Positions 3,173 to 27,485 of a stretch of DNA of 34,605 nucleotides are shown one piece after another (within the stretch, counting starts at the first letter, position 1; the number at the start of each line of letters is the position of its first letter). The translations under genes were made by a program, and so were the position numbers. Under the pieces are notes generated by a model. That model made no database searches. It was not told where the DNA came from and saw only the letters and a program-made list of their open reading frames with translations. This DNA is from Bathymodiolus heckerae thiotrophic gill symbiont (lineage in GTDB: Bacteria > Pseudomonadota > Gammaproteobacteria > PS1 > Pseudothioglobaceae), in contig NZ_FXLV01000010.1 of assembly GCF_900180345.1 (NCBI RefSeq), positions 1-34,605 on the forward strand, in the 5' to 3' direction.

Positions 3173-3186
3173 AACAGCTATAAAAA

Positions 3187-3225
3187 GATCTTTGCATAAA
3201 TATGGATGATTAGCAGAACACAACT
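3187..3225 (+). mobile_element. Truncated MITE end
   Basis: The stretch GATCTTTGCATAAATATGG followed by ATGATTAGCAGAA matches the left end of MITE copy 4 with small differences. Similarity fades after about 40 bp and no matching right end follows. It marks an older, decayed insertion next to the RAYT remnant. The rest of 3226-3355 holds nothing I can name. Confidence 0.6.
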
Positions 3226-24177: not shown

Positions 24178-24946
24178 ACTGGCTTTTAACGCATTAACTG
24201 AGTGCGATATTGATAAAAAAATCAATCAAGTAGCAAGTTTACATGCGCACAAAAATACGCTAGAATTTTCAAATGCCTTTCCGGTGCATTCTATTGAAAT
24301 TCCTGGTAGACCTGACAAGCCAGCATTAGTACGGTTTCAAGATTTACCCAAACACAACAAATCAGACCTGAGTTTTATTCACACCATTCATGCTATTTGC
24401 CATATTGAGTTTAATGCGATTAATTTGGCATTAGATGCTATTTATCGCTTTCAAAAGTTGCCTGAACAATTCTATCAAGATTGGATTCAAGTGGCTTTTG
24501 AAGAGTCGCAGCACTTTACTCTGATTAATAATTATCTAACCGAACTGGGTTATCAATATGGCGACTTTGTAGCGCACAATGGCTTATGGAAAATGACGCT
24601 TGATACCGATTATGATGTGCTTGCGCGTATGGCACTAGTGCCCAGAGTACTAGAAGCCAGAGGCTTAGATGTTACGCCGAAAATTCAAAAACGCTTCCTG
24701 CATTCTAAATTTAGCGCTATGAGTGATATTTTACAAACCATCTTTGAAGATGAAATTGGCCATGTCAAAATCGGCAATACTTGGTTTCATTATCTATGCC
24801 AACAAAGAGGGGTGAATCCTTTAAGTACTTTTGATGACTTGATAAAAAAGCATATAGGCTCTGAACTTCGAGGTCCGTTCAATATTGAAGCTAGAAAACT
24901 AGCAGACTTTTCTAAACAAGAATTAGACTATTTACAGCGCATTTAA
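24164..24946 (+). CDS. DUF455 ferritin-like protein
   Basis: The start at 24164 (MNAFELAFNALTECDID) is preferred over TTG at 24155. The 260-residue protein has ferritin-like metal-ligand patterns: HAICHIEFNAIN, FEESQHF and the late EDEIGHVKIG, and the family motifs SIEIPGRPDKPALV and VPRVLEARGLDVTP. A di-iron or similar oxidase/oxygenase role is inferred; no substrate is known. It overlaps rluE by 14 bp and, convergently, the DUF3530 gene by 15 bp. Confidence 0.9.
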   Translation: MNAFELAFNALTECDIDKKINQVASLHAHKNTLEFSNAFPVHSIEIPGRPDKPALVRFQDLPKHNKSDLSFIHTIHAICHIEFNAINLALDAIYRFQKLPEQFYQDWIQVAFEESQHFTLINNYLTELGYQYGDFVAHNGLWKMTLDTDYDVLARMALVPRVLEARGLDVTPKIQKRFLHSKFSAMSDILQTIFEDEIGHVKIGNTWFHYLCQQRGVNPLSTFDDLIKKHIGSELRGPFNIEARKLADFSKQELDYLQRI

Positions 24947-25810
24947 CCAACTACTTACCTTGATAATAAGGCGTTCAACTGATTTATTGTTTGTGTAATA
25001 ATGATCGGCATTGTTAATAATCATTTGTGCTGACTTTTTATTACCTGCCATCTTAATCAACCTACCCCTGTAGGCTGATAGTTTTCTCACGCCAGAGAAA
25101 TCCTGAGCAGCGTAAATATCCAATAACGGTACTGACATCTTGTGAAATGGAAAGCCATTTACAATCTTCTGATTGTAGTCCGTTGCTCCCATACCAATAC
25201 CAACAAATGCCTTGATTTTATCGTTGTTGTATTTATCCACATAACTCATCGCCATATGTGCGCCGCAACCATGCGCAATCAGCACAATATTACTAATACC
25301 TTTTTCCTGGTAAAAATCAATTGCCGCATCAATGCGCTCGTGCGAATAAGGAAATATTGGCACATAATCATAATATTTAGCCTCTTTGCCTAACACTGGC
25401 ATTTGCACCGATAAAGTATGCCAGCCCTGCTCTGTCAATCCAGTGCGAAGTGGCTTAATGGTGTCCGCCCAGTTAGCGTGCTGCCCACGATTGTGTAGAA
25501 TAATCACACCGCCTTTAGGCTTATCCGCCTCACTTTCCATAAAGATGCTAAACACTTCTTGGTCGTTTTTAAGGGATAAATATTCCACATCGCCATCCAT
25601 CACCGCATCCGCTATCTCATCAACCATTCGTTGTTCTCTAAGAAAATCAGGCTTAGAGTCTACAAACTGATTAAATTCAGCATGTAATTTATTTGGATTA
25701 AAATCACCAAACATTGGCAAATTTGGCAGCTTCAACATACCAGGGATTGGAAACACCGCATACGATACTTGTATCAATAGTAAACTTAATGTTAATAGAG
25801 ACCTTTGCAT
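24932..25810 (-). CDS. Exported DUF3530 family α/β-hydrolase-fold protein, start codon supplied by a MITE end
   Basis: The 292-residue protein has a signal peptide MQRSLLTLSLLLIQVSYA and an α/β-hydrolase fold (VIILHNRGQHANWAD near 103-115; VLIAHGCGAHMAM near 176-188; late D and H in DIYAAQDF and NADHYY). The nucleophile elbow reads AHGCGA, with Gly in the usual Ser position, so hydrolase activity is doubtful, as in much of DUF3530. Its ATG and first four codons lie in the end of MITE copy 2. Removing both MITEs restores MNKLLLTLSLLLIQVSYA with AGGAG before it. No ribosome site precedes the present ATG. The 3' end overlaps the DUF455 gene by 15 bp. Confidence 0.85.
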   Translation of the reverse strand: MQRSLLTLSLLLIQVSYAVFPIPGMLKLPNLPMFGDFNPNKLHAEFNQFVDSKPDFLREQRMVDEIADAVMDGDVEYLSLKNDQEVFSIFMESEADKPKGGVIILHNRGQHANWADTIKPLRTGLTEQGWHTLSVQMPVLGKEAKYYDYVPIFPYSHERIDAAIDFYQEKGISNIVLIAHGCGAHMAMSYVDKYNNDKIKAFVGIGMGATDYNQKIVNGFPFHKMSVPLLDIYAAQDFSGVRKLSAYRGRLIKMAGNKKSAQMIINNADHYYTNNKSVERLIIKVSSWLNAL

Positions 25811-25959
25811 AAATAGGGATGATTAGCAGAATTCAATTTTTGTCAAATTGGTATTTTTTTTAAACTCTGCTCTAGCAAGACTAAGGCTAGGTTTAAAAAA
25901 ATTACCAAATTGGTAAAAAGTGGATTTTTGATGATTATTCATATTTATACAAAGGTCTC
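25798..25959 (+). mobile_element. MITE copy 2 (162 bp), subfamily B
   Basis: Ends are GAGACCTTTGCATAAAT and ATTTATaCAAAGGTCTC, flanked on both sides by TAATA. The interior (CAAATTGGTATTTTTTTTAAA-type arms, AGCAAGACTAAGGCTAGG core) matches copy 4 rather than copies 1 and 3. The left end overlaps the first codons of the DUF3530 gene. Together with copy 3 it accounts for the whole 25811-26135 gap. Confidence 0.92.
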
Positions 25960-25964
25960 TAATA

Positions 25965-26125
25965 GAGACCTTTGCATAAATAGGGATGATTAGCAAAATT
26001 CAATTTTTTCCAGATTGGTGATTTTCTTAAACCTTGTCCTAGCAGGGCTAAGGCTGGGTTTAAAAAATTGCCAAGCGGGTGAAAAGTGGATTTTTGATGA
26101 TTATTCATATTTATGCAAAGGTCTC
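25965..26125 (+). mobile_element. MITE copy 3 (161 bp), subfamily A
   Basis: Ends GAGACCTTTGCATAAAT / ATTTATGCAAAGGTCTC, flanked by TAATA (25960-25964 and 26126-26130); the left TAATA is shared with copy 2. The interior matches copy 1 in reverse orientation (CCTAGCAGGGCTAAGGCTGG core, GCCAAGCGGGTGAAAAG arm). Because copies 2 and 3 belong to different subfamilies, the pair is best explained by two separate insertions at the same target, not by a tandem duplication. Confidence 0.92.
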
Positions 26126-26135
26126 TAATAGTAAT

Positions 26136-26675
26136 TTATTCATTATTTTCTCCTAATTTATCTAGTGCAGTTTGTGCCTGAGGATGTTTGTTTTTCCTAG
26201 CTTTGTCAAACCAATAAGTTGCTTGTTTGCTGTTATTTTGCTCCAAAAACAACGATGCCAAATTAAACTGTGCATATTCATCGTTTGCATTTGCCGCTAT
26301 TAACCACCACTGCCGTGCCTTTTTTGTGTCGCCGTGTCGATAATACAGCATTGCTAATTCACTTTGTGCGTAAGTCAGGCCTTGTTTGGCAGACTTTTCA
26401 AACCACGCAAATGCTTCTTTATCGTCTTGCTTAACACCCAATCCATGCAAATAACTCAGCCCAATATTATTTTGAGCCGCACTATGGCCTGCCTCAGCCG
26501 CACGCATCATCCAGAGAAAGGCATCATCATTGCGTTTTCTCTGAGAATATTCATGTCCAATTCGATACCACGAATCTGCACGACTATCAGCAATCGCTGA
26601 GGGTGCACTTAGTAGTAAGACGAAAAAAAAGGGTGTTATTAGCACCCTTTTTTCCTTTAGTAGAGGTCTTTGCAT
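26136..26675 (-). CDS. Exported Sel1-repeat protein, upstream ATG inside a MITE end
   Basis: Up to 179 residues: a signal peptide (KEKRVLITPFFFVLLLSAPSAIA, cleavage before DSRADS) followed by about four Sel1/TPR-like repeats (AFLWMMRAAEAGHSAAQNNIG; GVKQDDKEAFAWFEKSAKQG; and so on). Sel1 proteins are periplasmic or secreted adaptors. The ATG at 26675 lies in the end of MITE copy 4 (MQRPL...). An alternative GTG at 26645 has AAGGA 7 bp upstream but would drop the basic KEKR n-region. A native TTG start is also possible once the MITE is removed. The stop TAA overlaps the original DUF3530 ATG in ATGAATAA. Confidence 0.8.
   Translation of the reverse strand: MQRPLLKEKRVLITPFFFVLLLSAPSAIADSRADSWYRIGHEYSQRKRNDDAFLWMMRAAEAGHSAAQNNIGLSYLHGLGVKQDDKEAFAWFEKSAKQGLTYAQSELAMLYYRHGDTKKARQWWLIAANANDEYAQFNLASLFLEQNNSKQATYWFDKARKNKHPQAQTALDKLGENNE
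26623..26653. terminator. Bidirectional terminator-like hairpin at the start of the Sel1 gene
   Basis: GGGTG/CACCC with flanking A8 and T6 forms a stem on both strands, with U runs either way. On the minus strand it lies inside the signal-peptide codons of the Sel1 gene and encloses the candidate GTG start at 26645. It may be the former rhodanese terminator, or may limit Sel1 expression. Confidence 0.55.
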
Positions 26676-26825
26676 AAATATGGATGATTAGCAGAATTCA
26701 ATTTTTGTCAAATTGGTATTTTTTTTTAAACTCTGCCCTAGCAAGACTAAGGCTGGGTTTAAAAAAATTACCAAGTTGGTAAAAAGTGGATTTTTGATGA
26801 TTATTCATATTTATGCAAAGACCTC
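26663..26825 (+). mobile_element. MITE copy 4 (163 bp), subfamily B
   Basis: Ends read GAGGTCTTTGCATAAAT and ATTTATGCAAAGACCTC: both ends carry the matched change AC-to-GT, so the inverted repeat stays perfect. The flanks are TAGTA (left) and TAGCA (right), a 5-bp duplication with one difference. The interior matches copy 2. It lies between the rhodanese and Sel1 genes. Confidence 0.92.
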
Positions 26826-26843
26826 TAGCAAGGTAATCAAAGA

Positions 26844-27485
26844 TTACTTACCAACAGTGCTAAGACCTAATGAATGCCATGCATTCATACCTGAGCGGTA
26901 ATATTTAAGTTTGCTTTCTGGGTAGCCCAAAGAAAGTAAGGCTTTAATCGCCTCAGGGGATTGCCCACACCACAAACCATTACAAAACAAGTATAAAGTT
27001 TTAGCTCTACTGAAGTTAAAAATACCATCTTGTTCAGTCACACCAAACCTACTGGTTAAAATTTCCATCACTGCATCTGGATCTTTAGCAACTGCCTTAG
27101 CGTTTAACTTTTTAAATGAGATATTTACTGAACCTTTGATAGTGCCACCTTTTTTAGCACTCATCCAAACTGGGGTTCTTGCATCAATCACCATTTTTGA
27201 GTTGTCGCCTTTGGCAATATCACTAAGTGCGTGGATAATATCTAATTCACTTACAGTATCAACGGCAGCAGGCACAAACGGATTTGTTGGTTGAATACAG
27301 AATGGCGGACAAGGACGCGAAGTCTTTGCAAACGCTGGGTGGATAGTGGCTTTATTATTTTGGTCACGCGAAATGCCTGCAGCCTCCATAACACCTTTAA
27401 CAATGCCAACTGGCTTAGCCATTACAGTCGTTGACGCTAATAATGCTACCGATGCAGCACTTACTACTAGTGTTTTAAGTTTCAT
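26844..27485 (-). CDS. Periplasmic rhodanese-domain protein
   Basis: The 213-residue protein has a clear signal peptide (MKLKTLVVSAASVALLASTTVMA, cleavage before KPVG) and a rhodanese domain from about 80 to 208 (KMVIDARTPVW, KGSVNISF, YLFCNGLWCGQS, YYRSGMNAWHSLG). The active loop is Cys168-NGLW-Cys173-G, with two Cys and no Arg as sixth residue. A second Cys pair (Cys59, Cys63) lies in RPCPPFCIQPT before the domain. Such exported two-Cys rhodaneses are common in sulfur-oxidising and thiol-redox bacteria and may carry persulfide sulfur or act as thiol-redox proteins. AAGGA lies 8 bp before the ATG. Confidence 0.9.
   Translation of the reverse strand: MKLKTLVVSAASVALLASTTVMAKPVGIVKGVMEAAGISRDQNNKATIHPAFAKTSRPCPPFCIQPTNPFVPAAVDTVSELDIIHALSDIAKGDNSKMVIDARTPVWMSAKKGGTIKGSVNISFKKLNAKAVAKDPDAVMEILTSRFGVTEQDGIFNFSRAKTLYLFCNGLWCGQSPEAIKALLSLGYPESKLKYYRSGMNAWHSLGLSTVGK

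Follow-up and report, generated by a model that had tools for sequence, protein, structure and literature searches.

An in-frame ATG at the end of a MITE as a plausible replacement start for a severed Sel1 gene in a Bathymodiolus thiotrophic symbiont

Where does translation begin when a mobile element stands between a gene and its own start codon? The question is raised by the Sel1-like gene in the window analysed here, a stretch of 34,605 nucleotides from the Bathymodiolus heckerae thiotrophic gill symbiont (contig NZ_FXLV01000010.1, positions 1 to 34,605). The original prediction held that a MITE, copy 4, lies directly before this gene and offers it an in-frame ATG at 26675, and the ends of the element, the reading frame and the target duplication all bear this out. 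The protein read from that ATG opens with MQRPLLKEKR..., and its 179-codon frame contains a Sel1 repeat (PF08238, 6.9e-16).

The two repeat ends of copy 4, at 26663–26675 on the plus strand and 26813–26825 on the minus strand, each read GAGGTCTTTGCAT, with two mismatches to the consensus given in the original prediction; terminal-repeat matches across the whole window number 10, against 1.04 expected by chance. Read on the minus strand, the terminal repeat of copy 4 is ATGCAAAGACCTC, which includes the ATG at 26675. The insertion point is five codons into the Sel1 coding sequence, between the native TTG and the codons for the hydrophobic core of the signal peptide. The N terminus, MITLLKEKRVLITPFFF without the insert, becomes MQRPLLKEKRVLITPFFF when read from the MITE ATG; MITLL is replaced by MQRPLL, and the basic KEKR segment and the hydrophobic core are unaltered.

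Table 1. Features of the rhodanese–Sel1–DUF3530 region, with positions in the window.
Feature	Position	Strand	Basis or remark
DUF3530 gene, now opening at the ATG of MITE copy 2	24932..25810	-	
MITE copy 2, older subfamily, within the DUF3530 codons	25798..25959	.	
MITE copy 3, young subfamily, tandem with copy 2 and flanked on both sides by TAATA	25965..26125	.	
Sel1/TPR-like protein with signal peptide, 179 codons	26136..26675	-	frame opened by ATG 26675
Native DUF3530 ATG, AGGAG upstream, now leading to MNKLLLETFA*	26141..26143	-	starts in relatives
Terminator-like hairpin of the rhodanese gene (A-tract, 6–7 bp stem, T8), also coding for the Sel1 signal peptide	26623..26654	-	covariation, fold
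GTG, alternative start of the original prediction, in the 5' arm of the hairpin	26643..26645	-	GCG in ten relatives
Target-site duplication, left copy, TAGTA	26658..26662	.	relatives without the insert have a single copy
MITE copy 4, older subfamily, 163 bp	26663..26825	.	96–98% identical to other older-subfamily copies
MITE-borne ATG in the Sel1 frame, probable present start	26673..26675	-	no Shine-Dalgarno upstream
Promoter-like TTGACA-16-AATCAT, within the MITE end and 8 nt upstream of the ATG	26684..26711	-	weak, chance-level matches
Aborted native frame MITLLEVFA*, stop within the MITE end	26811..26840	-	translation of window
Target-site duplication, right copy, TAGCA, one change from the left copy	26826..26830	.	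sequence
Native TTG start of Sel1, now severed by the MITE	26838..26840	-	matching place: TTG in 27 relatives, ATG in one
Rhodanese-like gene upstream, first of the conserved gene row	26844..27485	-	

Comparison with relatives locates the native start. The gene order rhodanese, Sel1, DUF3530 is the same in them, the named relatives with this row being Bathymodiolus thiotrophic symbionts and SUP05-type genomes. When the region behind the rhodanese stop was aligned for 28 distinct related Thioglobaceae copies, an in-frame TTG was found 0–4 nt behind the stop in 27; the exception, L170, has an ATG instead, 13 nt behind it. The frame of Sel1 relative to that of the rhodanese gene varies between species, and the TTG is always in the Sel1 frame. 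Such a conserved start, almost touching the upstream stop, is as expected of a gene pair coupled by termination and reinitiation. In the window this start reads TTG ATT ACC TTG CTA, at 26840; the TTG named in the original prediction (TTG CTA AAG) was thus close, the best one being three codons further upstream. The other pre-MITE candidate, GTG at 26645, with AAGGA 7 nt upstream, aligns with ATG or GTG in 18 of the related copies and with GCG in ten (L162, L163, L167, L170–L174, L184 and L186), so that it cannot be the common start, and we rejected it as the conserved or ancestral one.

Several relatives depart from this plan. In L061, L062 and L064 (and in L164–L166) Sel1 is shifted about 100 bp downstream and has its own ATG, and in L061 a MITE end lies in the spacer. 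The ATG starts of L061 and L062 (ATGCAAAAAAATC) were considered as derivatives of a MITE end and rejected as such, the evidence going no further than seven shared letters. Thiodubiliella endoseptemdiera carries a second, partly degraded rhodanese–Sel1–DUF3530 row (L065), and in its main copy (L060/L160) the DUF3530 frame is apparently broken.

The element itself belongs to a large family. The genome (1.44 Mb in 119 contigs) holds 301 MITE ends, corresponding to about 150 copies. All 86 complete copies examined are 161–163 bp long, 79 of them exactly 161 bp, and 75 of these 79 lie within four positions of their consensus, a low divergence that points to a recent burst. An older subfamily includes copies 2 and 4, which are 96–98% identical to their nearest relatives, and copy 3 is identical to copies of the young subfamily. 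The elements have the characters of MITEs, being short, high in copy number and devoid of transposase, with terminal inverted repeats (GAGRYCTTTGCATAAA) and target-site duplication; 5-bp duplications, such as TAACA/TAACA and TATTA/TATTA, flank most of the copies inspected. Relatives of the element are present in 12 of the 12 genomes of the genus searched, in many of them in high copy. Half of an older MITE end at 3185–3220 of the window has no partner and is a decayed copy.

A possible source of mobility is seen at contig ends (L251–L253), where a DDE_Tnp_1 transposase fragment is followed by ...ATTATGCAAAGGTCTC or ...GAATTATGCAAAGGTCTC, the MITE terminal repeat. This juxtaposition indicates that there is, or once was, an autonomous element sharing these ends, and the contig-end sequences are probably fragments of the mobilising IS element; the transposase beside the common end is known from such fragments only, the complete element being unseen. 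A check against the IS5 family found only transposase fragments, and those with the common end fall below the curated cut-off. The IS terminal repeat, GAGACCTTTGCATAA, is that of the MITE, ATG included, and the presence of the ATG therefore needs no selection for starts; in the comparison between the two, the 5-bp duplication is a measurement made on the MITEs only.

The codons that follow the insertion have a second character. The hairpin at 26623–26654 has stem codons of the pattern RGG-(ATG/GTG/GCG)-YTN-NTN-GCN-YCC-YTT, giving up to seven pairs, with a T-tract next. Over 27 sequences, standard pairs make up 98.4% of pair cells, and both sides of the stem have changed in 25 cells, where shuffles gave 3.8 ± 2.2 and slid controls no more than 4; T5–T8 follows the stem in nearly all of them. 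A simple terminator scan of the region did not list this hairpin. It has the form of an intrinsic terminator, a G+C stem and then a T-tract, and by that form would be the terminator of the rhodanese gene. Its A-tract appears to encode the lysines of the Sel1 signal peptide, and its stem and T-tract the hydrophobic core. The covarying hairpin is seen across Thioglobaceae (L159–L187, L065 and L070), directly behind the TTG that abuts the rhodanese stop. L062 and L064 retain a similar hairpin after the rhodanese gene despite the shift of Sel1, which suggests that the hairpin has a function in its own right.

A published study in E. coli reports that the translating ribosome almost completely represses a terminator placed a few bases after a gene (PMC4824070). 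By analogy, re-initiation at the TTG could allow transcription to continue into Sel1. Likewise positioned just behind a gene, the Sel1-family hairpin differs from the E. coli terminators in that it also codes for the next gene. Termination–reinitiation coupling (PMC10666635) offers a second comparison: the rhodanese stop and the Sel1 start nearly touch here as well (TAATTG), but here the opening codons of Sel1 contain a terminator-like hairpin. No Shine-Dalgarno sequence was found before the native Sel1 TTG in the window. We propose tentatively, as a reading that is possible rather than probable, that the signal-peptide sequence of Thioglobaceae Sel1 is at the same time the preceding terminator, that re-initiation at the TTG decides whether it folds and so opens the gene's own transcription, and that in the present genome the MITE has broken this switch and put a start of its own in its place.

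For the gene as it now stands, the account that we consider the probable one is that a non-autonomous element severed the Sel1 start and that the in-frame ATG at its end restores the protein, as a retained accident. Before the insertion, the native TTG would probably have taken over ribosomes ending on the rhodanese gene. An element of 160 bp then entered five codons in, past that TTG; the native frame now closes within it, and the outward ATG of the terminal repeat, being in the same frame, restores an open frame for an intact Sel1 protein. The in-frame placement would be a one-in-three accident, kept because Sel1 is under selection, and ribosomes would now start at the MITE ATG, perhaps on a short transcript beginning in the element end. 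Since this ATG is in frame and the native start, known from relatives, is cut off, it is a plausible replacement start; it alone among the candidates gives a full signal peptide with a basic n-region. Two features of the ATG are less favourable. Neither it nor the corresponding MITE ATG of DUF3530 has a match to a Shine-Dalgarno sequence upstream, and in read-through RNA the ends of copy 4 pair and place ATG 26675 within a long stem, which counts against its use. A transcript from TTGACA-16-AATCAT, a sequence that 12 sampled ends of the older subfamily carry 8 nt upstream of the ATG, would be nearly leaderless and free of this pairing. We considered a promoter supplied by the MITE; the region contains 5 promoter-like matches, and 4.5 are expected by chance.

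The choice between the MITE ATG and other readings turns on the N terminus and on the state of the frame. Translation could now proceed from GTG 26645, with the MITE ATG an unused accident, and the AAGGA before this codon and the ATG or GTG found there in 18 related copies would favour such a start. Against it, ten relatives that keep Sel1 have GCG at this codon, so that it is not ancestral; the codon sits in the stem of the hairpin; and the resulting MLITPFFF would be a signal peptide without a basic n-region. We regard initiation at this GTG as unlikely, though possible as a fallback. Still less likely is that the insertion has silenced Sel1, leaving a young pseudogene whose frame has yet to decay. 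Silencing would fit the break in the native frame that follows the rhodanese stop, the lack of a Shine-Dalgarno sequence at the MITE ATG and the continued presence of the terminator-like hairpin downstream of the MITE, but the frame is intact across 179 codons, and copy 4 is of the older subfamily, its target duplication already carrying one change. The changes private to this Sel1 since its divergence from relatives are also mostly synonymous (7 against 2 nonsynonymous); these span more time than the insertion and do not date it, and selection on Sel1 after the insertion is not proven by the substitution pattern.

The same kind of replacement is seen in the next gene of the row. The native DUF3530 frame, from ATG 26143, ends in tandem MITEs: 25798–26125 comprises the older copy 2 and the young copy 3 with one TAATA between them, the second insertion having gone into the target duplication of the first. 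From the copy 2 ATG at 25810, DUF3530 is again open, as MQRSLLTLSLLL in place of MNKLLLTLSLLL (MNKLLL to MQRSLL). Both the MQR(S/P)L opening common to Sel1 and the DUF3530 frame and the description of the latter as a second, independent in-frame capture, made in the original prediction, are upheld, the native start being seen in relatives. Two other genes of the genome show it too: an M23 lipoprotein gene has changed from MLNNLIVAF to MQRSLNNLIVAF (MLNNLIV to MQRSLNNLIV) and a DsrE-like gene from MKQYKLKSLIAVF (MKQYKLKSLIAV) to MQRSLIAVF, with both native starts visible in relatives. All four swaps fall between the start and the hydrophobic core of an apparent signal peptide, as read from sequence. 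There is one out-of-frame counter-example (L014), in a polysaccharide deacetylase-like n-region, where MFKFII is followed by LMLFPLSVSA.

The original prediction went further, and suggested that the ATG-bearing end might be a selected property of the family. The four in-frame n-region swaps against the single out-of-frame case would favour an end selected because it spares or captures genes (4/5 in frame, p=0.045), a comparison chosen after the data had been seen. The wider count argues otherwise. It used 211 distinct ends of the approximately 301, taken from stretches around MITE copies and so a sample rather than a census, and outward frames that stay open over 80 codons or more. In this genome 11 of 29 such frames are in the frame of the ATG (the other two frames having 9 each), and in a relative (G053; 800 kb, 117 ends) 3 of 8 (the others having 4 and 1). 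Pooled, 14 of 37 such frames are in the ATG frame, or 38% (95% interval 22–55%), which is indistinguishable from one third (p=0.34) and in substance the outcome that the original prediction named as refuting it; at 30 codons the figure is 51 of 150. Several in-frame cases are either split genes (L008, L020, L036 and L019) or genes with their own downstream ATG (L202 and L219). Survival of needed genes would be expected to produce the small excess seen at 5' ends, and the ATG is part of a terminal repeat common to the IS element. The proposed family property thus fails, and we consider selection of the ATG-bearing end very improbable; in the Sel1 case the in-frame ATG looks like an accident rather than something designed into the element, one kept because the gene is needed.

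In-frame fusions with bacterial MITEs are known, from QMITE of Coxiella, ERIC and the Rickettsia palindromic elements (PMC5896051, PMC10969869). There, as here, a short non-autonomous repeat in or beside a gene adds codons to a protein. The element described here differs in supplying the start codon and first residues of a signal peptide, in place of a severed start, and it lacks the conserved open frame that runs through the Rickettsia elements. Among open-licence papers we found in-frame MITE fusions, and none in which a MITE replaces the start of a signal peptide.

The locus shows how a gene can tolerate an insertion that would be expected to kill it. A methionine and a basic residue suffice for the n-region of a signal peptide, and the element end codes for M-Q-R; signal-peptide n-regions may therefore be a general soft spot for replacement of start codons by mobile elements. 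Annotation of start codons near MITEs is correspondingly unsafe. The terminator-like hairpin embedded in the Sel1 signal-peptide codons would, if true, be a compact form of operon control.
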